From a virus: 41,921 bases of DNA. Every line of letters starts with the position of its first letter. Positions within the stretch are counted from its first letter, which is position 1. Below are positions 24,352 through 41,093 of the stretch, piece after piece. The notes under the pieces were generated by a model, which searched no databases, was not told where the DNA came from, and saw nothing but the letters and a program-made list of their open reading frames with translations. Both the position numbers and the translations under genes were made by a program. The stretch spans positions 1-41,921 of IMG/VR virus record IMGVR_UViG_3300023313_000016. One strand, 5' to 3'.

Positions 24352-24358
24352 ATACTCC

Positions 24359-25234: not shown

Positions 25235-25238
25235 TTAT

Positions 25239-25826: not shown

Positions 25827-26263
25827 TTACCTCGTGTGAGTTTAATTAAAAAATTGGCTAAGGTTCTTAACTCCTTACCCGCTAGATTAAAGAAAGGTCT
25901 GTCCTTTGAGACATAACCTGCTTTCTTGTTGTTGTAACTACCGGCTATAAAGAACTTGATGGTTCGGTCTATCACCCTATACCTGAAGGACTTTAGTAAA
26001 GATCCTGTCATTGTTAGGTTGGAAGTTCCTGCATCTGTCTTACTAGATAGTCTCATACTTGCCCGTCTCTTCTTAGTAGAGTCTGCAAGCTCTTTCAATG
26101 GGGAGGTGTTACCACCACTACGCTTTACTCCCTTGCCCTGTGCTTGAGTCCGTTCCACCATTAGGCGAACCCCCTCCTTGCCCAGTTGACTTAGGATCTT
26201 TTTGCTGGTCGCCTGTCTGAGTATCTGTTCCATCTTCAACCTGAATTGTGTTGCTTGGCTCAT
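25823..26263 (-). CDS. HK97-gp10-like head morphogenesis / neck protein (146 aa)
   Basis: Contains LGKEGVRLMVERTQAQGKGV, then SPLKELADSTKKRRASMRLSSKTDAGTSNLTMTGSLLKSFRYRV, a pattern of gp10-like or virion-morphogenesis neck proteins (RT-x-x-G-x-GV ... Y/T-x-x-RR ... L-x-x-TG-x-L). Because the conserved part begins before residue 35, the start must lie upstream, so the gene overlaps the end of the portal gene by about 146 bases. ATG 26263 has GGAG upstream; ATG 26230 is an alternative. Confidence 0.7.
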   Translation of the reverse strand: MSQATQFRLKMEQILRQATSKKILSQLGKEGVRLMVERTQAQGKGVKRSGGNTSPLKELADSTKKRRASMRLSSKTDAGTSNLTMTGSLLKSFRYRVIDRTIKFFIAGSYNNKKAGYVSKDRPFFNLAGKELRTLANFLIKLTRGK

Positions 26264-27671
26264 CCTCTTCTAGCTCCATTACCCATTCGTCTAATTCTTT
26301 CTCTGTCATTGTAGGATAGATCAGTCTTATGGCCTGTCGCTGTGTGGCAAGTCCTGCACTAATCAGCATAGTGGCCTTCTCAATCTTCTCCTTCTCTGAC
26401 GAAAATATCTTCTGCTCTGGGAATACTGTGTTAAGTTCAAAGCTTGAGGATAGACTCGCTGTCCCCTCGAAGTCTGCGATCTTAATCCAGTTCTCATTCC
26501 TAGCTGCAATTATTTTAAATAGTTCTTTCTCAGCCCAAATAAATTTATTTATCTGTGCGTTGCGTGAAGCTGTTGCATCTGCCTCGTCTACTATCTTCGC
26601 TAAGGCTGACGTTCTGCTAGATCCTGTCGAGTTGCCCATTGTTCCAGGTCTAATGCCCATAGACTCCAGCCAAGTGGCTAGGGTTGTCTGTATGAGCTTT
26701 ATAACGGCATCTATATCAATCTTAGGAGTAACTACCTCTACAGACCCCTTTACTCCGTCCTCTGCACTAGATGACTTCATAACCCAAATAGCATCAGGGT
26801 TTCGGTCAACCTCATCAGGTAAGTCCATGTCCTTAACAACAACTAGCGAGTGTGCTAGGTACTTGACAGCGTAATTTAGATCGCCTAGGAGTTTAGGTAT
26901 CAATACTGTGTTGCTTAACATGTCATCATTAGGTATAGGTAACAGCCTGCTGTGTGACTTGTTAACATAAACTATAGGAAGCATACCTAAAGGGTTTAAG
27001 CCGTCTAGGTTTGCCTGTGGTGTGTGATCAGGTCTAAGTGTACCGTCCGAGTCCATTACCATAAACTCTGTATCTGAATATACATAGAACAGGCCGACTC
27101 TTGACTTCTCACTAGGTCTAGTGAATATGCCATTAACGTTTACTCGTGACTCTTTATTAATACTCTCCACGTCGCCCATGAACTTTATAAACACTGTTGG
27201 GTTAGTCGGGTCTGTAGGATCATCTGAGTATACTGTGAATTGGTCTGGAGACATAACTCTTATTTTAGGCTTGCTGTCCATACTTAAATAAGGCTCTAGT
27301 GCCACAGTCTCGTGTAAGTTATACACCCTGTTTGCCCAAGCAAGCTTAGAGTCTATATTCATCTCTGTCTCATAAAACTCTATAATACTAGTGTCTGAGT
27401 CGAGTCCTGAAGATCTTGAGATAGGTTCGTCGTATATTCTGCTCAACTTATCTACAATACGTGTAAGTAAATTTATTGCCGGTACACGCTCTATCATCTT
27501 GACAACTGTTTCAGGTTTAAACTCATTGAGTAGAGATTTCTCTATTTCTCCCATCAATTGACCCGAGTCAATCAAGTTCAAGCGATTGGAGAACTCAACC
27601 CTATCAGAGTTCTGCTGCACGTACATAGCAATGTCGTGAGCCATCTCTCTAAGTGGTCTCTGTGTACCCAT
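26118..27671 (-). CDS. Portal protein (517 aa)
   Basis: Size, position after terminase and sequence (LLTRIVDKLSRIYDEPISR ... LLGDLNYAVKYLAHSL ... IDIDAVIKLIQTTLATWLESMGI ... ASRNAQINKFIWAEKELFKII) fit a phage portal of the dodecameric ring type. Start at ATG 27671 is preferred, with GGAG seven bases upstream; an upstream TTG at 27683 lacks a site. The last ~45 residues are low-complexity (NTIQVEDGTDTQTGDQQKDP...), and their DNA doubles as coding sequence for the next gene. Confidence 0.88.
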   Translation of the reverse strand: MGTQRPLREMAHDIAMYVQQNSDRVEFSNRLNLIDSGQLMGEIEKSLLNEFKPETVVKMIERVPAINLLTRIVDKLSRIYDEPISRSSGLDSDTSIIEFYETEMNIDSKLAWANRVYNLHETVALEPYLSMDSKPKIRVMSPDQFTVYSDDPTDPTNPTVFIKFMGDVESINKESRVNVNGIFTRPSEKSRVGLFYVYSDTEFMVMDSDGTLRPDHTPQANLDGLNPLGMLPIVYVNKSHSRLLPIPNDDMLSNTVLIPKLLGDLNYAVKYLAHSLVVVKDMDLPDEVDRNPDAIWVMKSSSAEDGVKGSVEVVTPKIDIDAVIKLIQTTLATWLESMGIRPGTMGNSTGSSRTSALAKIVDEADATASRNAQINKFIWAEKELFKIIAARNENWIKIADFEGTASLSSSFELNTVFPEQKIFSSEKEKIEKATMLISAGLATQRQAIRLIYPTMTEKELDEWVMELEEDEPSNTIQVEDGTDTQTGDQQKDPKSTGQGGGSPNGGTDSSTGQGSKA

Positions 27672-27683
27672 AAACTTCTCCAA

Positions 27684-28904
27684 TTAAATACACCTTGATC
27701 TCTGCAAAGGTTTCTTCAGAGGGTTAATTCCCCACAGTAAGTATCCTAGTGCATCTGATATGTGCGATAGTTGATCATCCTTGTTATCGTGAGCTAGATT
27801 GTCTAAGTCATTTATAAGCCTCTTGCACTTTGGGTCTATTTTTAGCCACCCGTTAGCAAGCCACCTGTTTACATTGTTGTATCTGTCTTTGACACTAGGG
27901 TTCTTTCTGCGGGTCTGTACATCCATTCCTGCGTCCCTGAGTATCTGATGGTCTGTCTTGGCTGCCGATGTCTTTCGTGCTGCTCCTGTAGCATCTGGGT
28001 ACACTGTCATGCCCTCCTGCCTATTTCTAAGCTCGCTGGATAGCTCGAAAGTGTTTGAGTGTTCTAACCAAACCTCATCATAAATATGAACAGATTGATT
28101 ACCTACCACAGACCCTATAGCTGCAGTGAGAGGATTGACGTTAAAGTCACAACCTGATCTCATGTCCAGCACTTTGTCATCAAATGTAAGTAAGTGATCT
28201 GTGTGTTTGAATGCGTGATATACTTTGCCTGCCATCAAGTTAACGAACTCTCCAGATACCTCCTGCTCGTACATGAGTGGGGAATACTGTATGGCTAAAG
28301 ACTCCAAGTAGTCCTCTGGTAGAAAGTGGTTGTCCAGTGCTGATGCGCTTAACATCTCGTGGAACTTGTCCTTGAACACTTGGGGTGTACCTGTACGTGA
28401 CACGTAAACACCTTCAGCAAACGCTTTATACATGAAGTTCATACCATTGGGAGAGCTAGTAAATCTAGCCTCCAGAGCTTCCGATCTAGGGCATCTGAGA
28501 CGACCTATCATGACATTGAATGCTTCCTCACGGGCGAAACAGATTTCGTCACCTGCTATCCACCCTACCTGAATACCGCGAAGTGCTTCGTATTTCTCAA
28601 GCGACAGGCATAGGCATTTAGCCCCTGTCTTGTGTAATATTAATTCTTTCGTGAGTGAGTTGAAACTGTAACTCAATCCCAACAGGTCTAGGTTTCTAAA
28701 TAACTCGGACATAATCGAGTTGTGTAATTGTGTGTATGAGTTCGCTGTGATCAATCCCATAGTTTCAGGATTTTTCAACATGCGTGAAATTATGTACCAC
28801 GACAGGATAAATGATTTGCCGTAACCGATACCAGATTTCAGCCAGAGGAACTTAGTCTTGGACATTAAGAATTTCTTCTGCTGAGCCAGTAATGGAACTT
28901 TCAC
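27684..28904 (-). CDS. terL: Terminase large subunit (406 aa), GTG start
   Basis: ATPase domain: Walker A SGIGYGKS at residues 24-31, Walker B with catalytic acid in VGWIAGDE at 113-120, coupling motif FTSSPNG. Nuclease domain: acidic residues in GCDFNVNPLTA, VYPDATG and HISDALGYLLWG, as in RNase H-like terminase nucleases. It translocates DNA into the prohead through the portal and cuts concatemers. GTG 28904 overlaps the small-subunit stop as GTGA and has GGAGG six bases upstream. Confidence 0.93.
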   Translation of the reverse strand: MKVPLLAQQKKFLMSKTKFLWLKSGIGYGKSFILSWYIISRMLKNPETMGLITANSYTQLHNSIMSELFRNLDLLGLSYSFNSLTKELILHKTGAKCLCLSLEKYEALRGIQVGWIAGDEICFAREEAFNVMIGRLRCPRSEALEARFTSSPNGMNFMYKAFAEGVYVSRTGTPQVFKDKFHEMLSASALDNHFLPEDYLESLAIQYSPLMYEQEVSGEFVNLMAGKVYHAFKHTDHLLTFDDKVLDMRSGCDFNVNPLTAAIGSVVGNQSVHIYDEVWLEHSNTFELSSELRNRQEGMTVYPDATGAARKTSAAKTDHQILRDAGMDVQTRRKNPSVKDRYNNVNRWLANGWLKIDPKCKRLINDLDNLAHDNKDDQLSHISDALGYLLWGINPLKKPLQRSRCI

Positions 28905-29173
28905 TCACCACCTCCACCAGAATCGTCCTGAAGGGGTCTAACAGGCTTCTCAGCGTCCGTGAACTCGATTAGAATACTCTGACCTTGATTTGCACTCGAA
29001 GCGTCCTGTGACTTGATTTTCGGTGTTGAGTACGATAACAACTCCATGAGCATCTTGGCTCGATAGTGAAAGTTGTCTATCTTATTGATATTCTTAATTA
29101 AAGTTTCAAAGAACTCTGGTGTATCTACCAGATCTACTACTCGGTCAACAAAGGAACCGCTGTCATTATCCAA
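28901..29173 (-). CDS. terS: Probable terminase small subunit (90 aa), TTG start
   Basis: First gene of the leftward morphogenesis operon, directly before the large subunit. It is short, with N-terminal helices (FVDRVVDLVDTPEFFETLIKNINKIDNFHYRAKMLMELL) and an acidic Gly-rich tail, which fits a minimal DNA-recognition subunit. It lacks a recognisable helix-turn-helix, so assignment is by position. The frame begins at TTG 29173, supported by GGGGGAC eight bases upstream. Confidence 0.65.
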   Translation of the reverse strand: MDNDSGSFVDRVVDLVDTPEFFETLIKNINKIDNFHYRAKMLMELLSYSTPKIKSQDASSANQGQSILIEFTDAEKPVRPLQDDSGGGGE

Positions 29174-29579: not shown

Positions 29580-29606
29580 TAAAGTTTTGGACAAATGTGC
29601 CGTTAA
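29580..29606 (+). promoter_or_regulatory. Sigma-28 (FliA)-type promoter for rightward operon
   Basis: TAAAGTTT (29580-29587), exactly 11 bases, GCCGTTAA (29599-29606): 15 of 16 matches to the FliA consensus. The expected start near 29613 gives a leader of about 50 bases before the first rightward gene at 29666. The surrounding CTAAAGTTTT ... CAAA ... TGCCG ... TAAGT is shared with the promoter at 41067. Confidence 0.82.
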
Positions 29607-29665
29607 GTAATATGAGGGCTGGATGAGAGCCTATTAACTGACTAAACCTTACGGAAGGGTAAGAA

Positions 29666-30097
29666 ATGAGCATCGAAGAGAAGTCACAGAAGATACTACA
29701 AAGACGTAAAGATCTGGCCGAACTACAGAGACACTGGTACAGGAAGTTAAAGTCTGAGGGGTTCAGAGACATAGAGTCGTTTGATTCCAGTATGGAGCCT
29801 GTAGACAAGCTAAAGCAGTCCTGCAAGAACATAACGACAACACTGTACATAGAGGGGGAGGACGAACCCGAGGAGTCTATAGAATACACTACAACTGTAG
29901 GGTTCTACCAGAGAGCAGACAGATTAATTAAACTTGACGAAACAGTTAAAGTTTTCAGGATACCACCCGATAAGGAAGTGTGGGAGATGTACAGGGTAGG
30001 CAAGGAGGTTCCTGAGATAGCAGAGACGACAGGATTCAGCAGAGCTCAGGTTAGGCGCAAGATAAAGAAATACACACAGACTGCTTTAGAACTATAA
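29666..30097 (+). CDS. HTH protein, first gene of rightward operon (143 aa)
   Basis: Begins with a charged helix and the segment LQRHWYRKLKSEGFRDIESFD, a pattern I recall from other phage HTH proteins, and ends with VWEMYRVGKEVPEIAETTGFSRAQVRRKIKKY, a clear helix-turn-helix (about residues 105-138) that resembles sigma region 4 or small regulators. As the first gene after the promoter it could be a transcription factor for this phage. ATG 29666 follows GGAAGGGTAAGAA. Its gene also contains an internal promoter-like site (29946-29972). Confidence 0.8.
   Translation: MSIEEKSQKILQRRKDLAELQRHWYRKLKSEGFRDIESFDSSMEPVDKLKQSCKNITTTLYIEGEDEPEESIEYTTTVGFYQRADRLIKLDETVKVFRIPPDKEVWEMYRVGKEVPEIAETTGFSRAQVRRKIKKYTQTALEL
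29946..29972 (+). promoter_or_regulatory. Internal sigma-28-type promoter
   Basis: TAAAGTTT, exactly 11 bases, CCCGATAA: 15 of 16 matches to the FliA consensus, lying inside the HTH gene. It would start near 29979 and transcribe the following genes from 30113 on. The match is unlikely to be due to chance but is under coding constraint as well, so activity needs proof. Confidence 0.6.
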
Positions 30098-30112
30098 ACA
30101 TAGGGGTAAGTG

Positions 30113-30349
30113 ATGGTAATGGTAGACGGAGAAGATGAGGACTGTTATAGTTTGTATGACTACTGTACAGGTATAGGCGAACACGTAGACGAAACTATAT
30201 ACAGGATAGACTCAATGAGGATGAACAGAATGACAGATTATGAAAGGAAGAGGCACGACATACTACAGAACATACACAACACTTTAACAGGCAAGAGACT
30301 ACAGGAGGCGTTAGGTAGACATTATGAAAGATACGGTAAATATAAGTGA
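30113..30349 (+). CDS. Small hypothetical protein (78 aa)
   Basis: ATG 30113 is chosen over the GTG at 30110 because GGGGTAA is at a better distance. N-terminal acidic stretch (DGEDEDCYSLYDYCTG), then a helical basic half (MTDYERKRHDILQNIHNTLTGKRLQEALGRHYERYGKYK). It resembles a small early phage protein; no known domain. Its end overlaps the start of the next gene. Confidence 0.7.
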   Translation: MVMVDGEDEDCYSLYDYCTGIGEHVDETIYRIDSMRMNRMTDYERKRHDILQNIHNTLTGKRLQEALGRHYERYGKYK

Positions 30350-30749
30350 GGAGGAAGATCTTAGCTATTTGGATCTAGAGTGCTTGCCAGTAGACAAGTC
30401 GTCATTCCAAATACACAACGAGAGAACAGATGTCTTATACAAGGACATTCTTACAGACATGTTTAAATACTTAGTAAATTACCCGTCTGCAGATTACTGG
30501 TCAGTGTCAAGACTAACAGGAGACTTGAACACCACCTATCTTATAGACAGGATACAGGCACTAGGTAGAACGTGTGTAGAAGGTAGAAGCTGGGGAGAGG
30601 TTGATGTAGAGCTTGTTGATGAGCTGCTGACCGTCTCCAACAGACCTATACCAAAGGACTTGCTTAAGATAACGCACAACCAGAATATAACCATTAACGT
30701 ACTCAAGGAACTTGAAAGGATTGACAATGACCAACGCAAAAAGGTTTAA
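30324..30749 (+). CDS. Hypothetical replication-region protein (141 aa)
   Basis: ATG 30324 lies inside the end of the preceding gene. An acidic N-terminus (MKDTVNISEEEDLSYLDLECL) is followed by a helical part with YWSVSRLTGDLNTTYLIDRIQALGR, and a C-terminus with NVLKELERIDNDQRKK. The SVSRLTGDLNTTYLIDRI segment is winged-helix-like (inference). No confirmed family. Confidence 0.65.
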   Translation: MKDTVNISEEEDLSYLDLECLPVDKSSFQIHNERTDVLYKDILTDMFKYLVNYPSADYWSVSRLTGDLNTTYLIDRIQALGRTCVEGRSWGEVDVELVDELLTVSNRPIPKDLLKITHNQNITINVLKELERIDNDQRKKV

Positions 30750-31065
30750 CGAAGGCAAGCTCAACTTTACACTAATACCTGTGGACGCTACAGAAGCAGA
30801 GGCTGAAGTGTGGCAGATGGGTGAGGTTAAGTACGGCAGAGACAATTGGACTAAGCTGTGGGGCGAGGACACTGTACACACTGTTATGGCCTCTATGCTT
30901 AGACATTGTGTAGCTATACAGAAAGGTGAGTCACACGACAGGGAGTCTGGATTACAGCACGCAGCACATATAAGGTGTAATGCAGCCATGATTATTAGAC
31001 ACTTCAATACTCTGTCTAGGTTAACAGATCTGACAGATGTAGAACAGAGAGAGTTCGATGACTAA
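30727..31065 (+). CDS. dATP/dGTP diphosphohydrolase-like protein (112 aa)
   Basis: The pattern RFNEGKLNFTLIP ... EVWQMGEVKYGRDNWTKL ... MLRHCVAIQKGESHDRESGLQHAAHIRCNAAMI matches the all-helical family known as the dATP/dGTP diphosphohydrolase N-terminal domain (DUF5664, MazG-like fold). Acidic residues in GEVKYG and GESHDRES are probable metal ligands. Such enzymes shape the dNTP pool in phage infection. Start ATG 30727 has AAAGGA six bases upstream; longer TTG-started forms lack it. Overlaps both neighbours. Confidence 0.8.
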   Translation: MTNAKRFNEGKLNFTLIPVDATEAEAEVWQMGEVKYGRDNWTKLWGEDTVHTVMASMLRHCVAIQKGESHDRESGLQHAAHIRCNAAMIIRHFNTLSRLTDLTDVEQREFDD

Positions 31066-31879
31066 GTTACGAAAGAAAATATATGCTTCTAGTTCATCGT
31101 TCATGGACGGCGACTTGGTAACAACACAGTACAGCTCTGGATGCCTTAGAATGATACTGGCAAAGGCTGCTGGGTTCAGAACAGACATCAAGCAGAAGTT
31201 CATGGACGTTGGAGAGATAAACGAGTTAAGGTTCTATAAGACACTTGTTGACAGTAACAAGTACAGTTTGATACTAGATGAGACACCTGTGAGAAGAAAT
31301 AATGTTATAGGGGGTGTAGCTTACTCATCACGTACAGACTTCTTAACATGGGAACCTGGAGACATACAACCTATCGTACATGAGTGCAAGGCAACCTTTA
31401 GCTCTGGACTGTTGTCAACAGCCAAGAAGGGTGAGCCTAGAATGAGTCACTTAGCACAGATAGTTAGTTATATGACTATACTTGGATTGCCGAAAGGAAT
31501 AATCTGGATACATGGGTATAGTGAGAAGAAGAACAAAGAGACAGGTGGAGTTGATATAGTTCCTAAGATACGTAGGGATACCAAAGAGCCTCACGAATAC
31601 AGGTTCGATATATCCTTTAGCGAGGACGGAACTATATTGATAAACGGTAGGAGGACATCTTATACACAGAAGGACTATATAAGTCACTTCATGGCAGTAG
31701 GTGAACTACTAAACAACCCTGTCTCCATACCTAAGAGACCTCTAGGCGGTGAGTGCGACCGAGAGTGCTGCTCATGGTGTGATCTCAAGACAGTATGCAG
31801 AAAGTCAGACGATGAAGGATTAACAGTAGACGAGTTTATTAACGAGGCCAAGAGCCTACCAATTAACACAGGAGATTAA
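31058..31879 (+). CDS. Cas4/RecB-like PD-(D/E)XK exonuclease with Fe-S cluster (273 aa)
   Basis: Catalytic residues: D94 in RTDFLTW, E109-C-K111 in VHECKATF, and Q134/Y138 in HLAQIVSYM (the QxxxY motif). Four cysteines in the Cas4 pattern, C29 in YSSGCLRM and C-terminal CDRECCSWCDLKTVC, should hold an Fe-S cluster. It probably makes 3' single-stranded tails for recombination, working with the Sak4-like ATPase and the ssDNA-binding protein. Overlaps the previous gene by eight bases. Not part of a CRISPR locus. Confidence 0.85.
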   Translation: MTKLRKKIYASSSSFMDGDLVTTQYSSGCLRMILAKAAGFRTDIKQKFMDVGEINELRFYKTLVDSNKYSLILDETPVRRNNVIGGVAYSSRTDFLTWEPGDIQPIVHECKATFSSGLLSTAKKGEPRMSHLAQIVSYMTILGLPKGIIWIHGYSEKKNKETGGVDIVPKIRRDTKEPHEYRFDISFSEDGTILINGRRTSYTQKDYISHFMAVGELLNNPVSIPKRPLGGECDRECCSWCDLKTVCRKSDDEGLTVDEFINEAKSLPINTGD

Positions 31880-31880
31880 T

Positions 31881-32642
31881 ATGAGTAACGTAGAACTACC
31901 AGTATTTAACCTAGACCCCTCAACAGCTACATTCAAGACAGATGACGAGTTAACGGCAGCCATAGCCTCTGAGTCCACAGGTAAGCGATTCAAGGAAGGT
32001 AACTACAGTCTAGTTATTAAAGAGGCCAGGTACAACAGGAAGTGTGCAGATGAGACTTGGATGACTGTCAAGATTGTACTAGGTACAGATGTCAAGGGAG
32101 ACGAGCGAGAGATCTCATTATACCAACTGTTCCCGCTCACACAGCGAATTGAGTATAAGAAACCTACGTCTGAAAAGAGTACATTGTTTTGCTGGAAGAA
32201 AGCAGCAGAGTTTATACGAGGTATTGGTGAGGTTGCATCGTCAACTGCATTAGTAGGATTCCTTACTAAGTATCTAGCAGGTCCAGGTGTAGCAGAGCCT
32301 ATCACTTATGAGGGATATAACAGAGACACTGAAGAGGTCGAGACTATGAATGGGTTCAGGTTCAAGAACTTCATCGGTAAGACCTTGGACGTAAGCCTGG
32401 GATACGAGGGCGGGCATATTGCACAGAACGACGAAGGACAGTACGCCTTAATCAAGGACGGTAAAGTTGTTGTTAAGAATGATGTTGAGATTGTTGGGGA
32501 CAGTTATGATGAGTGCCAGGCTATCATGATTGACAATGACATGGAACCGTCAGAGCATATCAGTAGCTTGAGTGTTTTAGCAATTCTACCTAAGAAAGCT
32601 GAGACAGCAACAATAGCTAACTCTGCACTAGCTGCAATCTAA
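31881..32642 (+). CDS. Putative single-stranded DNA-binding protein, DUF669-like (253 aa)
   Basis: Between a recombination nuclease and a primase, where phages encode a ssDNA-binding protein. The sequence KEGNYSLVIKEARYNRK ... ETWMTVKIVLGTDVKGDEREISLYQLFPLT resembles an OB-fold of the DUF669 type, followed by a helical segment (FCWKKAAEFIRGIG). The usual acidic tail of SSB is absent. AGGAG precedes ATG 31881. Confidence is moderate since motif evidence is weak. Confidence 0.6.
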   Translation: MSNVELPVFNLDPSTATFKTDDELTAAIASESTGKRFKEGNYSLVIKEARYNRKCADETWMTVKIVLGTDVKGDEREISLYQLFPLTQRIEYKKPTSEKSTLFCWKKAAEFIRGIGEVASSTALVGFLTKYLAGPGVAEPITYEGYNRDTEEVETMNGFRFKNFIGKTLDVSLGYEGGHIAQNDEGQYALIKDGKVVVKNDVEIVGDSYDECQAIMIDNDMEPSEHISSLSVLAILPKKAETATIANSALAAI

Positions 32643-32653
32643 CGGAGACTAGC

Positions 32654-33448
32654 ATGACCAGATACTATGAGTGGGCGTCAAAGCCCTTCACTAGAAGCGG
32701 TCTAATGTTAGCAGAGTCCAAGTTAAGTAAGATAGTAGATGCTCAGATGTGTTCTGGGTATTCTACTGTCTATTACTTCTCACAAGAGGATGCTGACGAG
32801 ATCAAGGAGAGTGGTAGTTCTTCAGGCTTCAAGAGATATGCCGTGGGAGCAGACAGGATTGTACTTGATCTGGATGACGGCGACTCACAGCTTGAGGAGA
32901 CAGAGAAGATACTTAAGGACAAAGGACTGCAGTATGAGGTATGGTTCTCCGGTAAGAAGGGCTACCATATCTATATACCAACAGAGGATATGTATGACAA
33001 GGACCTACCTTACTCACATTTGATGTATATTAGGTCATTGGGTATTAAGTGTGATGAGAGTCTGTATCAGCATGGGAGGCTACTGAGTCTACCTGGCAGA
33101 ATACATCCCAAAACACGAAAACGCAAGCAGAAGCTCAGAATGGTACCAGGAGTGGCCGCAGACGTTCAGATAGTACAGAGGCCTATCTTTACCCTTTCAG
33201 TCCACTCAGACCCCTCTCACGTCGTCCTAGCTGGCGCACTGATGAGATTGAGCGAGATGGCCCTGAACGAACCTAGAAGAGATGCACGCCATACAGAGTT
33301 ATGGGCAGTTGGTAAGGACTTAGTTAACGGTGGGTTGAGAGATGATTTAATATTTAACTTATTGCAGGCTGTGATGACATCATGGGACAGGCCAAAGGAC
33401 GATGAAAAATTAATGCGAATAATATCAATGAGTAGGAGGCAAGCATGA
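32654..33448 (+). CDS. AEP-superfamily primase (264 aa)
   Basis: Archaeo-eukaryotic primase core: catalytic acids in VLDLDDGD at residues 70-77, a basic His motif SGKKGYH at 99-105 and a LSLPGRIHPKTRKRK segment. Together these match the AEP (PrimPol-like) fold. It should make primers for phage DNA synthesis. The C-terminal part (TELWAVGKDLVNGGLRDDLIFNLLQAV) resembles helical extensions of other phage primases. ATGA overlap with the next gene. Confidence 0.82.
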   Translation: MTRYYEWASKPFTRSGLMLAESKLSKIVDAQMCSGYSTVYYFSQEDADEIKESGSSSGFKRYAVGADRIVLDLDDGDSQLEETEKILKDKGLQYEVWFSGKKGYHIYIPTEDMYDKDLPYSHLMYIRSLGIKCDESLYQHGRLLSLPGRIHPKTRKRKQKLRMVPGVAADVQIVQRPIFTLSVHSDPSHVVLAGALMRLSEMALNEPRRDARHTELWAVGKDLVNGGLRDDLIFNLLQAVMTSWDRPKDDEKLMRIISMSRRQA

Positions 33449-33891
33449 TCTCACCATCACTGAGATATCGAATACTTACAGGTTTACGTAAGGCGTACTT
33501 TATGTCGTATGAGAGGAAGCAAGTTCTTGAGAGATGTGAGACAGCTACACCTGCTATGAAGAAGGACGGTACACCTAAGTTAAGGTTAGGTAAGCAGTGT
33601 TACGTTAGGAGGTATAACTGTGAAGTGTGTGGTAAGGGGGACTTTAAGGCACCTAAAGAGTTTCAGGTAGATCATATTTCACCTGTGGGAGGTACTCCAG
33701 GCACTAGGGATACACCTAAATGGTGGTCATGGGACATCTATATTAACAGGTTATTCTGTGACGCTGACCAGATGCAGGGAATATGCACAAATTGTCACAT
33801 CTGTAAGACTGTGAAAGATAAGGCTAATATAAAAAATGGAACTTTTTATAAAGATTTAGCTAAAGTTTATCTGGAAGGTGCCGAGAAGTAG
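33445..33891 (+). CDS. HNH endonuclease (148 aa)
   Basis: Zn-binding pair CEVC (59-62), catalytic VDH (75-77) in FQVDHISPVGG, and NCHIC at the end (CTNCHICKTVKD) match the HNH nuclease fold. In replication modules these act in junction cleavage, packaging or as free-standing mobile nucleases; which one here is not visible. The end of the gene contains a sigma-28-type promoter. Confidence 0.82.
   Translation: MISPSLRYRILTGLRKAYFMSYERKQVLERCETATPAMKKDGTPKLRLGKQCYVRRYNCEVCGKGDFKAPKEFQVDHISPVGGTPGTRDTPKWWSWDIYINRLFCDADQMQGICTNCHICKTVKDKANIKNGTFYKDLAKVYLEGAEK
33861..33887 (+). promoter_or_regulatory. Internal sigma-28-type promoter before helicase
   Basis: TAAAGTTT (33861-33868), exactly 11 bases, GCCGAGAA (33880-33887): 15 of 16 matches to the FliA consensus. 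It lies in the last codons of the HNH gene and would start near 33894, about 27 bases before the helicase ATG at 33921. Confidence 0.7.
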
Positions 33892-33920
33892 TATAAGATT
33901 AACGCACAGGGAGGCACAAC

Positions 33921-35291
33921 ATGACACTAGTATCAAGATTCGACGGGACAGGTAACGTACCAAGAGAGCTACAGGTAGAATGTCTTAACTGGCTTGAGCA
34001 GAACTGGGCTGAGTCTGTAGTATGCTTCCAAGGAGGCACAGGGTTCGGGAAGAGTGCTGTTGGAGTGTCCTTGATGAAGAAATACGGGGGTGTGTATGTA
34101 GTACCTACCAATGCTTTAATGGATCAGTTGATTGAGACTTACCCAGAGATAAATTACCTCAAAGGTAAGGAACACTACTCACTGGAGACTGAGTATAAAG
34201 ACTCACTGTCTAGATATGGTTCTGGAGAGCCTACATTTGTTAATCCGTACTCGTTTAAGTATGCGAAGTACAATACATCAGTAAAGTCTCCACCTGTACT
34301 AATAATAGATGAGTGTCACAACATGATGGATACACTACAGTTGATGGCAAGCTCTTCTATAAGTACAAAGGTACATGGACTACCTAAATCATTTGAGCAT
34401 GTCGATTTGGTGAACTGGCTAGATGTAATTGTAAAGTATCTTAGGTCTGCAGCATCTTGTGAAGATGACTTGCTTAAGAAGTCTCAGCTATCTATCAGGG
34501 CAACAGGTATACATGAGACGCTACAAGCATTGATAGACGAGCCTCATATCTACTCTGTACACAAGGATAAGGGTAGGGTAGTGTTCAAGCCTATACAGCC
34601 ACCTAAGAGCGTTGTGAATGAGTTCTTTAGGTCTGAAAAGACTGTACTGATGAGCGCAACAATAAATGAGTTCACAGTTAAGGAATTAGTACAGGAGAGG
34701 AAGGTACAGTTTAAAGCATTCGGCACACCCATAAAGGTTGAGGACAGACAAGTGCTGTACAGACCTGCAGGGTTCGCTATGAATATGAATACACCACTTA
34801 GGTTAGTGGCAAGCTGGATCAAGATGCAGTTGAGGAAGTATCCAGACAGGAATGCTATAGTACACTTAACATACAAGGATGTGGAAAATATCAGAGAGTA
34901 TATACCAGAAGCCTTGTACGTTACAAAAGAAACTAAGACAGATGATGTTAACGAGTTCAAAAAGAAAGGCGGTGTTTTATTAGCAGCAGCATGTGGGACA
35001 GGGATAGACCTACCCTACGACGAGTGCAGATTGAACATCATACCAAGGTTACTTAAACCTAACCTAATGGACGGGGCTATTAAGAAACGTAAGGCATTGT
35101 CTGATGGGAGTCAGTGGTACAACCACCAGATCATAGATACATTAATACAGCAGGCAGGACGCAGTACAAGATCAGTAGACGACAGTAGTATAACCATTGT
35201 GGGAGACAAGAACCTAAAGTTTTTTATGAGAGGTATTAAGCATGAGATTAACGAAGATTTTCTATCCAGTATTAAGTGGGGGAAGAGATGA
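33921..35291 (+). CDS. Superfamily 2 Rad3/DinG-like helicase lacking the Fe-S motif (456 aa)
   Basis: Walker A GGTGFGKS at 38-45, DECH box at 130-133 (LIIDECHNM), SAT motif in VLMSATINEF, and motif VI QQAGRSTRS near the C-terminus. The DECH followed by NM and the LKGKEHYSL segment (80-88) resemble XPD/DinG helicases, where LKGRxNYxC begins the Fe-S cluster; here the Cys position is Leu and the region up to DECH has no cysteine. Thus it looks like a family member without the cluster. GGAGG upstream of ATG 33921. It probably acts as the replicative or recombination helicase. Confidence 0.85.
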   Translation: MTLVSRFDGTGNVPRELQVECLNWLEQNWAESVVCFQGGTGFGKSAVGVSLMKKYGGVYVVPTNALMDQLIETYPEINYLKGKEHYSLETEYKDSLSRYGSGEPTFVNPYSFKYAKYNTSVKSPPVLIIDECHNMMDTLQLMASSSISTKVHGLPKSFEHVDLVNWLDVIVKYLRSAASCEDDLLKKSQLSIRATGIHETLQALIDEPHIYSVHKDKGRVVFKPIQPPKSVVNEFFRSEKTVLMSATINEFTVKELVQERKVQFKAFGTPIKVEDRQVLYRPAGFAMNMNTPLRLVASWIKMQLRKYPDRNAIVHLTYKDVENIREYIPEALYVTKETKTDDVNEFKKKGGVLLAAACGTGIDLPYDECRLNIIPRLLKPNLMDGAIKKRKALSDGSQWYNHQIIDTLIQQAGRSTRSVDDSSITIVGDKNLKFFMRGIKHEINEDFLSSIKWGKR

Positions 35292-36094
35292 GTAATAAAG
35301 ACAATAGGCCTAAGATACTGATCCTAGATATAGAAACCTCCCCCAAATTGGGGTACATATGGTCTCTGTGGGATAACAATGTATCATTGAGTCAGTTAGT
35401 AGGCGATACGTATACACTCTGTTGGTGTGCTAAGTGGTTGGAGGATGACTATGTCTATTACGACTCCTTACACTACCATAAGAAGATGTGGGACAAAGAG
35501 CCTGAGAACGACATCAAGATACTTGAGTCTGTATGGAAGATGTTGGACGAAGCAGATTATGTAATGGCTCACAATGTTAGGTTTGACGTAGGTACACTTA
35601 ACTCTAGATTTATACAACAGGGGATGAAGCCACCTAGCAAGTATAAAACTATAGACACCTTACGCATAGCTAAACAGAACTTTAAGTTCACGAGCAATAA
35701 GCTGGAATATCTTGCCTCAGTATTGACAGAGGACAGTAAGATGGACGCAGGAGGGTTTTCCACCTGGAGAGACATCTGTCTGAATAAATGCACTGAAGCA
35801 TTTGACCACATGGTAGAGTATAACATCAAGGATGTTGAGGTACTTGAAGAAGTGTACTTGAAACTAAGGTCATGGGACAGTAAGGCACCAGCATTACCTC
35901 TGTCTGGAGGCCTTGATGAGATGTCCTGTAATGCTTGTGGGTCTAGTAAGGTGAATAAGAATGGCTCATACAGCACTAACACGCAGAAGTATCAGAAGTA
36001 TAAGTGTGGAGATTGCGGACACTCAATGCGAGGAGCTAAAGCACTCAAGACACACAGCAAGGAACAGAAGAACAATTTACTACGAACCATTTAA
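35288..36094 (+). CDS. DnaQ-like 3'-5' exonuclease with zinc ribbon (268 aa)
   Basis: DEDD exonuclease motifs: LDIET near residue 14, MAHNVRFDVGTLNSRF (Exo II) and YNIKDVEVLEEVY (Exo III). The C-terminus holds a CNAC ... CGDC zinc ribbon that could bind DNA, like those in transposase or replication proteins. It may proofread or trim ends together with the split polymerase, which has its own exonuclease domain. ATG 35288 overlaps the helicase stop as ATGA with GGGGGAAGAG upstream. Confidence 0.8.
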   Translation: MSNKDNRPKILILDIETSPKLGYIWSLWDNNVSLSQLVGDTYTLCWCAKWLEDDYVYYDSLHYHKKMWDKEPENDIKILESVWKMLDEADYVMAHNVRFDVGTLNSRFIQQGMKPPSKYKTIDTLRIAKQNFKFTSNKLEYLASVLTEDSKMDAGGFSTWRDICLNKCTEAFDHMVEYNIKDVEVLEEVYLKLRSWDSKAPALPLSGGLDEMSCNACGSSKVNKNGSYSTNTQKYQKYKCGDCGHSMRGAKALKTHSKEQKNNLLRTI

Positions 36095-36108
36095 CCAAGG
36101 AGACAGGC

Positions 36109-36960
36109 ATGGACTTTAAAGCACTAATCAAGCAAGCACAGGCAGACAAGGAAAAGGATCAGAGCGGTAACAGCCTATTCTGTTGTGTGTTAGGGCCATC
36201 AGGAGCAGGTAAGAGTCACGTAATAGGTACTCTAGGTGTTAAGACACTATTCTTACACTTTGTTGGCGAGGCACACGGTGTCAAGTCATCAGTCAAGGAA
36301 GGTGGGGAGAACATTGTACCCGTATGCTTGGACTATGTGGACGGTAAGATGTTGGAACCCGATCAAGTTCTAGCTAGACTGCGAGACATACTGTCAGCAC
36401 CACAGGATATCAAGGCAGCAGGGTTTAAGGCCATAGTTCTTGATGGACTAACAGAGCTAGACATGGCAGTGAGTGAGAGTAAGGAACTTAAGAAGATGTG
36501 CTTAACTGCAGCAGGTAAGGTGGACGGGTTCAAGACTACTCCAGCTACCAAGCAGATCATGAGCGGCATCATTAACACCTTCCAGACAGTGAGAGCTACA
36601 ATAGGGTGTCACTTTATCACAACCTGTATACTTACAGTCAAAGAGTATGACGATGAGAAGGCTATACTAGAATGCAGCCCACAGTTGGGTACATTTGGTC
36701 TAGCTGAGAGCGTACTGCAGAAGTTTGGTGACAGGGTAGTAGTATCACCATTAAAGAGAGTTAACCCTAAAACTGGAGAGGATGAGGAAGTACATGTGTT
36801 CGACTCTAGGGTAACAGCTAGTAGGTCTAGCAAGGATCAGAATGGTAATGTCAAAAAGACTATTAACTTTAACAGCCGTATTGAGTCAGGCAACCTACCA
36901 TCTCTCATGAAGGCAGACTTGAGTGATTTACTTAAGGTTAAGGCAGGGGGTGAGGGGTGA
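36109..36960 (+). CDS. Sak4-like RecA-fold ATPase / annealing protein (283 aa)
   Basis: Walker A GPSGAGKS at 29-36 and a Walker B in FKAIVLDGLTEL near residue 112. Length and motif layout fit Sak4-type single-strand annealing ATPases of phage replication modules, and it lies near a Cas4-like exonuclease and a putative SSB. It would pair ssDNA in recombination-dependent replication. AAGGAGACAGGC precedes ATG 36109. Confidence 0.78.
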   Translation: MDFKALIKQAQADKEKDQSGNSLFCCVLGPSGAGKSHVIGTLGVKTLFLHFVGEAHGVKSSVKEGGENIVPVCLDYVDGKMLEPDQVLARLRDILSAPQDIKAAGFKAIVLDGLTELDMAVSESKELKKMCLTAAGKVDGFKTTPATKQIMSGIINTFQTVRATIGCHFITTCILTVKEYDDEKAILECSPQLGTFGLAESVLQKFGDRVVVSPLKRVNPKTGEDEEVHVFDSRVTASRSSKDQNGNVKKTINFNSRIESGNLPSLMKADLSDLLKVKAGGEG

Positions 36961-37139
36961 GTTATGGCTACCTGTCCTACTTGGTAGGATTAATAATTAT
37001 AACAACAGTAACTTTAACAAGAGCTTTCTACACAGAAGATACAAAATGCGAGAAGGTAGATGTAAGCAGTTCGGTAGAAGAGGACGGAGACTATCTATAC
37101 ATACAGATTGGTCCATGGAGCACAGGGGGTGAAAGGTGA
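36957..37139 (+). CDS. Small membrane protein A (60 aa), GTG start
   Basis: GTG 36957 overlaps the preceding TGA as GTGA. One N-terminal transmembrane segment (YLSYLVGLIIITTVTLTRAFY) is followed by a polar tail (EDTKCEKVDVSSSVEEDGD...). Plan fits an inner-membrane anchored protein with a periplasmic or cytoplasmic tail. A spanin-like or holin-like role is possible but not proven. Confidence 0.7.
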   Translation: MSYGYLSYLVGLIIITTVTLTRAFYTEDTKCEKVDVSSSVEEDGDYLYIQIGPWSTGGER

Positions 37140-37294
37140 CAGACTACCATATAAACTACATGTTAGGCATGTCACTGATGGTGGCAGTACAGATAGGGAT
37201 GGCAGGACTGCTAGTAAATCTAGCTCAGTCTATACTTAATGACAAAGAATGTGAGGAGGACGACGATGCGAGACTTCATGATGAACAACAGTAG
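37136..37294 (+). CDS. Small membrane protein B (52 aa), GTG start
   Basis: GTG 37136 overlaps the stop of the preceding gene as GTGA. A single hydrophobic helix (YMLGMSLMVAVQIGMAGLLVNLAQ) lies near the N-terminus, followed by an acidic tail (NDKECEEDDDARLHDEQQ). Too short for routine calling but tightly nested with both neighbours. Confidence 0.7.
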   Translation: MTDYHINYMLGMSLMVAVQIGMAGLLVNLAQSILNDKECEEDDDARLHDEQQ

Positions 37295-37361
37295 CTTCTT
37301 TACTATCACAATACCATTTATTGTACTTATCATAGGGTTCAAGTCCAGTTATGGGAAGTAA
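37266..37361 (+). CDS. Tiny membrane protein C (31 aa)
   Basis: ATG 37266 has GAGGAGG six bases upstream, inside the end of gene B, and the stop lies inside the start of the polymerase gene. The protein is one hydrophobic segment (FFTITIPFIVLIIGF) with polar ends. The strong ribosome site supports translation. It may be a regulator of the neighbouring membrane proteins or simply a coupling device for polymerase translation. Confidence 0.65.
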   Translation: MRDFMMNNSSFFTITIPFIVLIIGFKSSYGK

Positions 37362-38544
37362 TAGGGTAGTAGCACTTGACTTTGAAACAACCGGGCTTGA
37401 TTACTACAAGCCTGAGTTTAGGGTAACTGACCTAGCTCTCTCATGGCGTAATGATGAAGGCGACATAGCCAACCACTACTGTCAGGGAGAGCAGGCCATC
37501 CTTCAGGCGCTAGAAGCTTTACAAGAGAAGAATGTAACTTTAGTAGTTCACAATGCGTTCTTTGACATAGGATGTTTACAAGCAAGGTTCCCTAGCATAC
37601 AGTTTGACAAGTGGTATGACACAGCCAGACTAGCACAGGTAGGGGATGCAGGAGAGGGACAGGAGATGTATGCACACAGGTACTTAGCACAGGGCGGAGA
37701 GATACAGAAGGGACTATCCTTAGTAGCCTGCTGCTCTAGGTGGCTTAACTGTGACAAGCATAACCACAAGGATGAGGCTCACTCTTGGATCAGGGAGAAC
37801 GTAGGTAAGAATGTAGTCTGTGGAGAGCATTTAGATAAGCTACCGGACGATATAATGATGAGGTACAACCTAGCAGACACAGATAACACATTACTGTTGT
37901 TTGAGAACATAACGAAGCAGTTTGTGATTGATGGGTACACTAACTTTGAGTTAGATCATCAGCTGTACAGGGTTAGGGTACATCAGTTAATTAATTCGTT
38001 TATAAAGGGGACTCCTGTGGATGCTGCAAGGCTTGATGATTGTATACTCAGTCTTGAAGATGATTTAGACGGTATCTATCAAAGGTTCCTTGCAGAGCAC
38101 AAGAATGACATACTAAAGTGTATTGCTATTAAGATTAAAGCCTACTGTACCGATGATAGATTAACAGATCGGGGGAGAGAGGGTAGGTGGATGAAAATAG
38201 CGTTAGGTAAACCATTTGCAGGGAGGCCAGCAATCTGTGGATTCAACATCAATAGTGCTAAAGATCTGTCTTTATTGTATGAGCATGTTCTGGGTATTAA
38301 ACCACCCTTCTATACACGGCCAAACAAAAAGACTGGCAGCGCAGGCGGCAATAACAGTTTCAAGAAGGCTCACTTACCAGCGTGGCATGAAAGCGGTAAG
38401 ATCTTAGCAGACAAAGGTAACTTAAAGATAGCTCTGAGTCAGTCACAATCACTGAAGGAGCTGCAGAGTGAAGATGGTAGGTGGCACATAGGTATGAGAG
38501 CCACAGGGACAAAAACTGGACGCCTAAGCGGAGGGAGAGACTGA
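37351..38544 (+). CDS. Family A DNA polymerase, N-terminal piece: exonuclease and thumb (397 aa)
   Basis: Proofreading exonuclease: D10/E12 (ALDFETTG), N68xxFD72 and Y172xxxD176, a complete DEDDy set. The rest corresponds to the thumb/start of palm and ends in ATGTKTGRLSGGRD, i.e. the TxTGRLS motif of family A polymerases, at UGA 38542-38544. The polymerase palm/fingers continue in the +1 frame (next gene). No ribosome site precedes ATG 37351, so translation probably depends on the overlapping 31-aa gene. Confidence 0.88.
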   Translation: MGSNRVVALDFETTGLDYYKPEFRVTDLALSWRNDEGDIANHYCQGEQAILQALEALQEKNVTLVVHNAFFDIGCLQARFPSIQFDKWYDTARLAQVGDAGEGQEMYAHRYLAQGGEIQKGLSLVACCSRWLNCDKHNHKDEAHSWIRENVGKNVVCGEHLDKLPDDIMMRYNLADTDNTLLLFENITKQFVIDGYTNFELDHQLYRVRVHQLINSFIKGTPVDAARLDDCILSLEDDLDGIYQRFLAEHKNDILKCIAIKIKAYCTDDRLTDRGREGRWMKIALGKPFAGRPAICGFNINSAKDLSLLYEHVLGIKPPFYTRPNKKTGSAGGNNSFKKAHLPAWHESGKILADKGNLKIALSQSQSLKELQSEDGRWHIGMRATGTKTGRLSGGRD

Positions 38545-38548
38545 CATG
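38536..38548 (+). promoter_or_regulatory. RF2-like stop/shift junction within the polymerase
   Basis: The sequence is GGAGGG AGA GAC UGA C AUG: a Shine-Dalgarno-like stretch (38530-38535) three bases before the last sense codon, then UGA followed by C. The E. coli RF2 site AGGGGG UAU CUU UGA C has the same layout. A +1 shift at GAC-UGA would join the two halves. But tRNA-Asp pairs poorly in the +1 position (ACU), and GGAGGG can equally serve as the ribosome site of ATG 38546, so reinitiation is an alternative. Confidence 0.5.
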
Positions 38549-39415
38549 GTTAAGTTAAACGCACAGGGAATGAGTAGACGCAATAAGCCGTTAATGAGCG
38601 CACTTACTGCAGACAGCGCAGACACACTTGTATCTGTTGACTTCAGTGCAGGAGAGCCTACGGTAACAGCGCACTTCTCAAGAGACCCTAGGTATCTATA
38701 TGCCAACTTCACAGGTGTGGGTAAGGAACCTCACTATAGTAACGGCGTATTGATGATAGACGACATGTATCTGATGGGGGCTAGTGTAGCGCCAACAGGA
38801 CAGGATGCTATGAAAGAGGCGTTTAACTCAACCTATGGGGGTATGAGCTTTGCAGAGCAGTGGGTGCTAGATAAGGATGTAATTAAGAGTGATGCCAGCA
38901 TAAAGCCTGTCAGAGCTTCACACAAGACATCTATACTAGCAATGCAGTATGGGCAAGGGCCAGCAGGTATGGTAGCTAATGCCGCAGACAATGGAGTGTC
39001 AATTAAGCTGTCAGACGCCAAGAGATTTCATAAAGCTTTCTGGAATGATCTGTTTCCTGGAGTTAGAGATCTAGGCAAAAGACTGACAGCCTACAACAAG
39101 CAGAATGGGTGTATTGTTAACCCCTTTGGCTTCAGACTGTTCCCTGCAGACTACAAGTGCTTGAACTACTTCATACAGTCCTGTGTATCTGGACTAATGG
39201 ACATGTTAATGGCCAACTTCTACACATTGGCACCTTACTGTGATCATATAGTAGTTATACACGATGAGATGGTGTTCTCCTGTCCAACAGAGAGATTGGC
39301 AGAGGCCAAACTAGCACTTAAGCAGGCCTTGAAGCATTTGAATGACACACTAGGTTGGTCTGTCAACATTAGGACAGGGTGGGTTGTAGGTAAGGATATG
39401 TACGAAGCTCACTAA
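38546..39415 (+). CDS. Family A DNA polymerase, C-terminal piece: palm and fingers (289 aa)
   Basis: Motif A VDFSAGEP (D32, E37), motif B RASHKTSILAMQYG (R123, K127, L131, Y135) and motif C VIHDE (239-241) show an intact polymerase active site. The residue equal to Phe762 of E. coli Pol I is Leu131; Leu at this site is known from viromics studies of marine phage PolA. The frame is open upstream to 38528, overlapping the first piece by 17 bases. ATG 38546 has GGAGGG ten bases upstream. Together with the preceding piece it makes a complete enzyme. Confidence 0.88.
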   Translation: MVKLNAQGMSRRNKPLMSALTADSADTLVSVDFSAGEPTVTAHFSRDPRYLYANFTGVGKEPHYSNGVLMIDDMYLMGASVAPTGQDAMKEAFNSTYGGMSFAEQWVLDKDVIKSDASIKPVRASHKTSILAMQYGQGPAGMVANAADNGVSIKLSDAKRFHKAFWNDLFPGVRDLGKRLTAYNKQNGCIVNPFGFRLFPADYKCLNYFIQSCVSGLMDMLMANFYTLAPYCDHIVVIHDEMVFSCPTERLAEAKLALKQALKHLNDTLGWSVNIRTGWVVGKDMYEAH

Positions 39416-39425
39416 AGGAGGTAAT

Positions 39426-39896
39426 GTGTCAGGATTAATAATTTACATACTTTTAGCCAGTGGATTGAGGTCTACAACGTATGGGTGGGGTGAATTAATG
39501 TGCGGAGATGTCGGACACCCTGTCAGATGCACAGATGGTGCTGTTACGGCCTCTGGAGATGTTTTTGATACCAGCATACCAACCATGGCTGTTAGTGCCC
39601 CTGTATGGCTTGTTACGAGGTCAAAAGTTGTACCAGTCAAGATAGATGGCGGCAAATGTGTGTACATAAGAGTAAATGACAAGATGAACCCCAGATATAT
39701 CGGAGAAAGAGGCTTCGATCTATCACCAGCAGCAGTTAGACTGGTAACAGGGGCGGTGCCTACCTCTACATGGAGTGGGAGGATAACAATATGCTACGAC
39801 TTGTTACTGGACAATATAACAACTATGGGGAAAATAAAATGGAACCTAAATATCGAGCAGGGGACAGGATTAAATTTAAACACTGGAAGGAGGTAG
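39426..39896 (+). CDS. Secreted RlpA-like double-psi beta-barrel protein (156 aa), GTG start
   Basis: A hydrophobic N-terminus (GLIIYILLASGL) looks like a short signal peptide. The mature part has the RlpA pattern: TASGDVFD, then CVYIRVNDKMNPRYIGERGFDLSPAAVRLV (like VrVnDrGP...gRiiDLS.aAA). RlpA proteins are septal lytic transglycosylases in some bacteria; here the usual Glu and His are Asp and Val, while the Asp in VND remains, so activity is uncertain. It may act on peptidoglycan in lysis or in superinfection control. GTG 39426 has GGAGG just upstream. Confidence 0.7.
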   Translation: MSGLIIYILLASGLRSTTYGWGELMCGDVGHPVRCTDGAVTASGDVFDTSIPTMAVSAPVWLVTRSKVVPVKIDGGKCVYIRVNDKMNPRYIGERGFDLSPAAVRLVTGAVPTSTWSGRITICYDLLLDNITTMGKIKWNLNIEQGTGLNLNTGRR

Positions 39897-40270
39897 TTAA
39901 ACTAGGTAAATTAACTAAGACAGGTATGTGGATGCCCTTGGTACTTGAGTTGAAGTCAGGTATCAAGTATGAACTTAGATTACTCAAAGCCTTGACAGGA
40001 CAGACGGGTAAGATAGTTCATGTAGACAACACAACAGAGCCGGGAGTCATTACCTACAAGGTACAGTGGCTGTATGGTAGGAACTTATCAGAGATCTTCA
40101 TGGTAAGCGAGCTGATAGACAGTAAAGTGATGTCAGTTATTAAATGTGATGTATCTGACAGAGATATTGCAGTATTAAAGCATAGCAAGAGGATGAAGGT
40201 ACAGGCAGAGCGCAGAACACATAATAAGAGAGTAAGTATGGCATTTAACTTAAAAAAGAAGGGGAAGTAG
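39839..40270 (+). CDS. Hypothetical protein with KOW/SH3-like segment (143 aa)
   Basis: ATG 39839 is chosen because GGGG is upstream and the longer frame lies inside the preceding gene; the two overlap by 58 bases. YRAGDRIKFKHWKEV and GQTGKIVHVDNTTEPGVITYKVQWLYG look like SH3/KOW-type beta strands, and the C-terminus is basic (KHSKRMKVQAERRTHNKRV). Nucleic-acid binding is plausible, function unknown. Confidence 0.7.
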   Translation: MEPKYRAGDRIKFKHWKEVVKLGKLTKTGMWMPLVLELKSGIKYELRLLKALTGQTGKIVHVDNTTEPGVITYKVQWLYGRNLSEIFMVSELIDSKVMSVIKCDVSDRDIAVLKHSKRMKVQAERRTHNKRVSMAFNLKKKGK

Positions 40271-40271
40271 T

Positions 40272-40985
40272 ATGTTGAAGATTTTAATAGCTTTAAGCTT
40301 TGTATTGGGGACACATGGGTACGCTAAGTCTAAGAAAGGTCGTAATAAGACAGTTATTGGTACTAGACCTGCAGTAACCATCACATTGAGGGATAACCCA
40401 CCTCTAGGTAACGAGACAGCCCTCCTAGCTGTACTGGACAGAGATGTTGACTTAATCATAGAGTCTGGTGGTGGGTATGTGTCCACATTCACAGAGTTCG
40501 GTAAGTCTTTGGTCAAGCTGCAGAAGAGAGGCTTTAAAGTAAACTGTTATATTAAGAAGGCTTATAGTATGGGCTTCTACATCATGTCGATGTGTGACAA
40601 GAGATACTTCTACAGGAATGCTACTGTGATGACCCATGACCCCTTCTTTGTTACGGCAGGTAGGTATAAAGTCACTACAACTGATGCTAGAGAACTGCTA
40701 AAGACGGCAAAGAGGCTGCACACACAGATACAGAAAACATTTAAGACCATTAAGTACAAACAGTTCGTTACTAAGGAGTCATTTCTAACAGTACCTATGC
40801 TATTACACTATGTTCCAACCTTTGTTGATGGTATTGTTGACAATGACAGGAAGGTGCTATGTAAATCTACAGTTAAGTGCAAGAAGCTTAGTTTTGAGCA
40901 GTCCAGACAACCTAACCCGCTATTAGAGCTACTTAGGAGGTTTCGTGTACCTGGACAGGATAGCGGATCAATAGAGATGCACTGA
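40272..40985 (+). CDS. Secreted ClpP/SppA-like serine protease (237 aa)
   Basis: A clear signal peptide (LKILIALSFVLGTHGYA, cleavage near residue 18) precedes a crotonase-fold protease core: IIESGGGYVSTF (64-74), then AYSMGFYIMSMCD with the probable catalytic Ser99, and NATVMTHDP with His122. These match the ClpP pattern (A-x-SMG ... N-x-x-x-M-H-x-P). A third residue is not certain. A periplasmic location is unlike phage capsid ClpP-like proteases and more like SppA. It could degrade envelope or signal peptides in the host. Ends just before the terminator. Confidence 0.78.
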   Translation: MLKILIALSFVLGTHGYAKSKKGRNKTVIGTRPAVTITLRDNPPLGNETALLAVLDRDVDLIIESGGGYVSTFTEFGKSLVKLQKRGFKVNCYIKKAYSMGFYIMSMCDKRYFYRNATVMTHDPFFVTAGRYKVTTTDARELLKTAKRLHTQIQKTFKTIKYKQFVTKESFLTVPMLLHYVPTFVDGIVDNDRKVLCKSTVKCKKLSFEQSRQPNPLLELLRRFRVPGQDSGSIEMH

Positions 40986-41008
40986 TAGTTGAACAGTTTG
41001 TATATTAT

Positions 41009-41034
41009 GGGAGGGCTTAATAGCTCTCCCTTTT
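41009..41034 (+). terminator. Rho-independent terminator
   Basis: Stem GGGAGGGCT / AGCTCTCCC, nine pairs with one G-U, closed by a TAAT loop and followed by TTTT. Located 24 bases after the protease gene, it ends the rightward operon before the next promoter at 41067. Confidence 0.88.
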
Positions 41035-41066
41035 CACACGTTTACAAAATATATTGCAAATAGTGC

Positions 41067-41093
41067 TAAAGTTTTAACCAAACCTGCCGATAA
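41067..41093 (+). promoter_or_regulatory. Perfect sigma-28 (FliA) consensus promoter
   Basis: TAAAGTTT (41067-41074), exactly 11 bases, GCCGATAA (41086-41093): 16 of 16 matches to the FliA consensus. Upstream AAATAGTGC is shared with other sites. Expected start near 41101, about 25 bases before ATG 41126. Confidence 0.88.

Follow-up and report, generated by a model that had tools for sequence, protein, structure and literature searches.

The stretch of DNA analysed here (hereafter the window) is the complete stored virus record IMGVR_UViG_3300023313_000016, 41,921 bases from an uncultured bacterial virus. Its gene content is that of a tailed phage, with a structural operon on the minus strand and a replication block on the plus strand; no terminal repeat was found at the ends of the 41,921-base window, and the record may be a fragment of a phage genome. 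Distributed among these genes is a set of sites that resemble the promoters of FliA (sigma-28), the flagellar sigma factor. The motif is TAAAGTTT-N11-GCCGATAA, in which TAAAGTTT is the -35 box, GCCGATAA is the -10 box and the spacer measures 11 nucleotides (nt); this is the Escherichia coli FliA consensus. Sites and main genes are given below, with mismatches counted against the motif and scores taken from the matrix described in the next section.

29580..29606, plus strand: putative sigma-28-type promoter heading the replication block; 1 mismatch, matrix score 33.8
29947..29973, plus strand: FliA-like match inside the open reading frame (ORF) 29666-30097, doubtful as a promoter; 1 mismatch, matrix score 23.5
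33861..33887, plus strand: putative sigma-28-type promoter that overlaps the HNH gene at its 3' end; 1 mismatch, matrix score 33.7
41067..41093, plus strand: perfect sigma-28 consensus with an A-rich AAATAGTGC extension; 0 mismatches, matrix score 46.1
5880..5906, minus strand: putative sigma-28-type promoter with the AAATAGTCC extension; 2 mismatches, matrix score 39.1
2450..2476, minus strand: putative weak sigma-28-type promoter with the AAATAGTCC extension; 5 mismatches, matrix score 23.6 (shuffle maximum 15.3)
2634..2660, plus strand: sigma-28-type site without a clear protein gene downstream; 3 mismatches, matrix score 28.9
5910..29173, minus strand: structural operon with terminase, portal, major head protein, tape measure and tail genes (gene annotation)
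29666-41865, plus strand: replication block with a helix-turn-helix (HTH) protein, HNH endonuclease, helicase, exonuclease subunit, Sak4-like annealing protein and polymerase (two ORFs)
29666..30097, plus strand: first gene of the block, a 143-residue protein with a C-terminal HTH; TIGR02937 match with E 0.0072, far below the cut-off
33921..35291, plus strand: DNA helicase, apparently served directly by the 33861 promoter; PHROG 2488, E 7e-38
35276..39415, plus strand: replication genes for the exonuclease subunit, the Sak4-like annealing protein and the polymerase in two ORFs

Sigma-28-type motifs in the window

Five sites with at most two mismatches to the motif are present on the two strands of the 42-kb window, where 100 dinucleotide-preserving shuffles give a mean of 0.01, close to the figure of about 0.02 calculated by hand in a first-pass annotation of this sequence; none of the 100 shuffles reached five. 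The same annotation had pointed to the FliA consensus with its 11-nt spacing at 41067 (no mismatch), at 29580 and 33861 (one each) and at 5880 on the minus strand (two), and all four were recovered; its further one-mismatch match exists as well, at 29947-29973 rather than at 29946. The background is low, since 21 other viral records (1.13 Mb) contain three sites at the same threshold, or about 0.11 per 42 kb, and the motif read backwards has no site in the window. We also paired -35-like boxes (at most one mismatch) with -10-like boxes (at most two) at each spacing from 0 to 30. Spacing 11 gave seven pairs, where 0.26 per spacing would be expected, and no other spacing gave more than one.

An independent matrix of 55 positions was built from 58 sites in 26 stretches of other viruses, in which the motif lies outside long ORFs and ahead of a gene led by a ribosome-binding site (RBS), and it was run on the window, on a relative of the window phage and on shuffles. 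Seven window sites are recovered, scoring 23.5-46.1, whereas the highest value reached in 60 two-strand shuffles was 15.3. Among the weaker forms listed in the first-pass annotation, the one at 2450-2494 is retained and best placed at 2450-2476 on the minus strand, and the one at 2206 was dropped, as it falls below the listed matrix score of 8.

The structural operon (5910..29173, minus strand) has no convincing sigma-28 site. Two exact TAAAGTTT words 19 nt apart, at 29456-29463 and 29475-29482 on the minus strand and each preceded by GTC, face this operon; neither of them, at 29456 or at 29475, has a -10 box.

Predicted start sites and downstream genes

Features for which the training sites had not been selected also emerge from the matrix. 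A C adjoins the -35 box on its upstream side (72%), a stretch rich in A lies 5-10 nt upstream, and a T followed by a purine comes about 8 positions past the -10 box, with C in none of the 58 sites. The T/purine step looks like a transcription start. At the sites 29580, 33861, 41067 and 5880 (minus) position -1 is a T and position +1 a purine in every case, and an RBS-led start codon follows 25-62 nt further on. Site 29580 has a predicted start at 29614 (TG) and a 52-nt leader to the ATG at 29666; site 33861 one at 33895 (TA), with 26 nt to the helicase ATG at 33921; and site 41067, which lies directly 3' of a terminator-like hairpin, one at 41101 (TG), with 25 nt to the ATG at 41126. On the minus strand, site 5880 has a predicted start at 5872 (TG) and a 62-nt leader to the ATG at 5810, and site 2450 one at 2442 (TA), with an RBS-led ATG about 38 nt away, near 2404. 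Together, these sites lead into the replication block, into the helicase and the gene at 41126, and into small genes of unknown function at 5810 and near 2404.

The E. coli genes fliC and fliD are known FliA targets. Their promoters have two mismatches each to the consensus, so that the five window sites, with zero to two, are equal or better matches, and they share with the window sites the A-rich upstream stretch and the T/purine start. The first-pass annotation had noted an upstream AAATAGTSC common to three sites, and this extension is indeed found at 41067, 5906 (minus) and 2476 (minus). As fliC and fliD have the same geometry and upstream stretch, we infer that AAATAGTSC represents the A-rich upstream part plus the C of a strong FliA promoter.

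Two sites on the plus strand differ from this pattern. Site 29947 is doubtful: it sits within a coding sequence, its predicted start lacks the T/purine step and the relative has nothing equivalent. It could be a chance match or a non-promoter site, and we do not include it among the promoters. Site 2634 has CG at its predicted start, departing from the T/purine rule, and no counterpart of it was seen in the relative. In 2634-2850 (plus strand), about 130-180 nt past this site, there is a terminator-like sequence of the form TTGGCAC...GTGCCAA...TTTTTT, and the region possibly encodes a FliA-driven small RNA; this candidate has no Rfam match and its fold is ordinary (z -1.25).

Conservation in a related virus

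A DNA search found no close cultured phage for the window, the proteins gave only distant matches to cultured phages of various hosts, and alignment of TerL against GTDB contigs recovered no relative. One relative was found, IMGVR_UViG_3300009408_000011 (43,398 bases), which has the same gene order in the opposite stored direction and shares 76% identity in TerL and 27-75% in other proteins. The array is kept in this virus, partly at the same places, so that one outcome named in the first-pass annotation as refuting its reading, a lack of the motif in related phages, did not occur. The relative has seven matrix sites with scores of 24.9-41.4, six of the seven with a T/purine start. Two of them are plainly in the same place as window sites. 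The site before the helicase, over the end of the HNH gene, is 33861 in the window and g9358 (minus) in the relative, where it has one mismatch; the site beyond the last gene of the structural block is 5880 (minus) in the window and g36748 (plus) in the relative, where it is an exact consensus with a similar leader. A third pair lies at the head of the replication block (29580 and g15075 (minus), the latter with three mismatches and a score of 31.7).

The HNH gene allows the conservation of the promoter to be compared with that of the protein. Of its conserved residues, 48% keep their codon between the window and the relative. The longest run of identical codons (six) sits under the -35 box, and the -10 box is kept despite residue changes; for these two reasons there seems to be selection on the DNA here, beyond that on the protein.

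Other observations concern the gene layout of the two viruses. Polymerase functions are split among ORFs on the plus strand of the window (exonuclease subunit at 35276-36094, polymerase parts at 37351-38544 and 38546-39415), and the relative has the same split. About 90 residues of the product of 30712-31065 (plus strand) match two PHROGs, one named dATP/dGTP pyrophosphohydrolase and the other endolysin inhibiting RNA polymerase; because these names are unrelated, the match is best regarded as a shared domain and the annotation as doubtful. The right end of the relative (L201, around 3120-3398) contains a long inverted repeat (foldback), either an assembly artefact or a hairpin end.

Recurrence in other viruses and in bacterial genomes

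The exact motif occurs in at least 119 stretches of IMG/VR, many of them with several sites and up to 11 in 30 kb. A control made of the same words at the wrong spacing of 14 occurs in 25 stretches, none with two sites, so that real sites exceed the control almost fivefold or more; the scan must nevertheless include some chance matches and some bacterial genes in provirus contigs. Among the matches listed, an RBS-led gene lies no more than 100 nt from 79 of 136 real sites and from 5 of 25 controls; ORFs of at least 100 amino acids enclose 43 of 136 real sites and 22 of 25 controls. The 26 records sampled fall into about 20 groups sharing almost no protein (only parts of most records were compared). 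Most of the genes downstream of the sites have no known function; rIIA/rIIB-like genes, a helicase and a transposase are also present.

These data bear on two explanations in which the sites are not promoters. The AT-rich genome of the window could have given rise to FliA-like words by chance or composition, as may be the case for site 29947. For the site set as a whole we rejected chance on the basis of the shuffles, the reversed pattern, the wrong-spacing controls and the conservation in the relative, and we regard this explanation as barely credible. Alternatively, the motif could be bound by a phage regulator or be some other DNA element (an operator, or a replication or packaging element), its likeness to a FliA promoter being fortuitous. 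Operators in phages can be long and conserved, and the window sites do stand at block boundaries. Against this, the sites match both FliA boxes at the exact spacing, are oriented with the genes and have a purine start at the right distance, and the same form is seen at E. coli fliC and fliD and in about 20 viral groups that are unrelated. We consider it very improbable. The sites are very likely FliA-type promoters, as the first-pass annotation had proposed: their sequence and spacing agree with this, as do the likely start sites, the closeness to genes and the conservation in the relative.

In several other viruses (G025, G007 and G010, and the loci L011, L077, L088 and L094) TTGACA is found within the spacer of the FliA site, in several cases with a TATAGT-like word downstream; we read these as putative composite sigma-70/sigma-28 promoters of other phages.

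Across the GTDB contigs (257 billion bases, bacterial and archaeal) the exact extended form occurs twice. One occurrence is ahead of a flaG-like operon in a Candidatus Magnetominusculus genome. The other (L232) is on JALHRR010000011.1, a 129-kb contig in a Saprospiraceae bin that has five clustered FliA-type sites at 122-127 kb; the other contigs of that bin have no such cluster, and the contig is probably a misbinned phage. A blastn search of the consensus promoter against cultured phages gave partial, scattered matches only.

Factor reading the sites

We consider it probable that these are genuine sigma-28 (FliA) promoters which are served by the host flagellar sigma factor and drive the non-structural genes, not the structural operon. 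An infecting genome would then use the host flagellar sigma factor together with the host RNA polymerase to transcribe the replication block and the small accessory operons, and the structural operon would be driven by something other than sigma-28. Since the non-structural genes would depend on FliA, their transcription should be strong in cells with free FliA, which are completing their flagella, and weak in cells without it. The tie to motile cells could perhaps come from phage entry through flagella or through a co-expressed surface structure. We infer the use of host FliA, the early timing of the genes and the link to motile cells from the sequence, which suggests an infection tuned to hosts that are making flagella. 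The description of the served genes as early, made in the first-pass annotation, is plausible for several that are replicative (the block behind 29580 and the helicase at 33921), but it is safer to call the set non-structural, because 5880 (minus) and 2450 (minus) serve small genes of unknown function beyond the structural operon.

An alternative already named in that annotation is a phage-encoded factor of the same specificity. This could be a divergent sigma factor, or else a helper resembling sigma region 4, for which the HTH protein of 29666-30097 is a candidate; host motility would then be irrelevant. The HTH protein and its orthologue in the relative both match sigma region 4 weakly, and some other multi-site viruses encode stronger sigma-like candidates (38.7 bits in G014, 30.3 bits in G007/G010). 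All of these sigma-like matches are nevertheless below the curated TIGR02937 cut-off; the model of the HTH protein has low confidence except at the HTH, and its PDB matches are generic HTH folds. Neither the window nor its relative has a match to Sigma70_r4 (PF04545), and sigma region 2 (Sigma70_r2, PF04542), needed to read GCCGATAA, was found in neither. Reading the -10 box is beyond a region-4-like protein on its own, and the HTH gene is itself behind a sigma-28 site, so that the reader must already be in the cell. For these reasons host FliA is the simplest reader and the likely one, and a phage-encoded factor, while made less probable by the missing region 2, keeps the weak HTH match in its favour and is an unlikely explanation.

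Several observations weigh against host FliA as the single input and against a simple link to flagella. In addition to the faint likeness of the HTH to sigma region 4 and the weak sigma-like proteins of some other multi-site viruses, there is a sigma-70-like site upstream of 29580, and sigma-28 may therefore not be the sole input there. No such array occurs in chi, iEPS5, PBS1, PCH45 or 7-7-1, which are cultured phages dependent on flagella; flagellotropism alone therefore does not account for the trait. Bdellovibrio was considered as a host since FliA runs its attack phase; the one Bdellovibrio phage examined, phi1422, has no array and one weak site only.

Chi (position 1744, two mismatches) and iEPS5 (position 19025, one mismatch) each have a single FliA-like match, near-identical in sequence, which in chi is inside a long gene.

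Comparison with known systems

Phages are generally described as starting with the host housekeeping sigma factor. In the literature searched, which left most subscription papers outside its reach, we found no description of phage replication genes driven by FliA. If the proposed use of FliA is correct, a phage would sense the switch of its host between motile and sessile lifestyles directly by promoter choice. The arrays in about 20 unrelated IMG/VR groups would make sigma-28 use a general strategy, and the array would be a sequence signature able to predict phages of motile cells. We offer only tentatively, as somewhat short of an even chance, the broader idea of a widespread convergent class of phages that gates non-structural expression on the host flagellar sigma factor, with infection proceeding or being deferred according to whether flagella are being made.

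The FliA class 3 flagellar promoters of E. coli and other bacteria have the same -35 TAAAGTTT, 11-nt spacer and -10 GCCGATAA, an A-rich upstream stretch and a T/purine start about 8 nt past the -10 box. They precede flagellar genes, whereas those of the window precede virus replication and accessory genes. A reach far beyond flagellar genes is known from Bdellovibrio, where FliA is the master regulator of the attack phase and can run an entire lifestyle programme (PMC3627812); as in the window, FliA-type promoters serve other genes as well, but there within a bacterial regulon. TldR loci, which provide phage-encoded regulation of flagellin, resemble the window in being phage-borne and linked to FliA promoters and flagellin (PMC13418256). 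They alter the host flagella, and phage replication genes under FliA promoters were not seen reported there (PMC13418256).

The nearest published idea is the "lytic deferment" proposed for pili- and flagellum-dependent phages of Alphaproteobacteria, which carry arrays of CtrA sites (PMC9437464). As in the viruses described here, a host regulator tied to motility is used through arrays of sites, with independent origins in several lineages. CtrA, however, is an activator/repressor whose arrays are concentrated in one region, whereas the window, with a different motif, appears to carry entire alternative-sigma promoters distributed over several operons.

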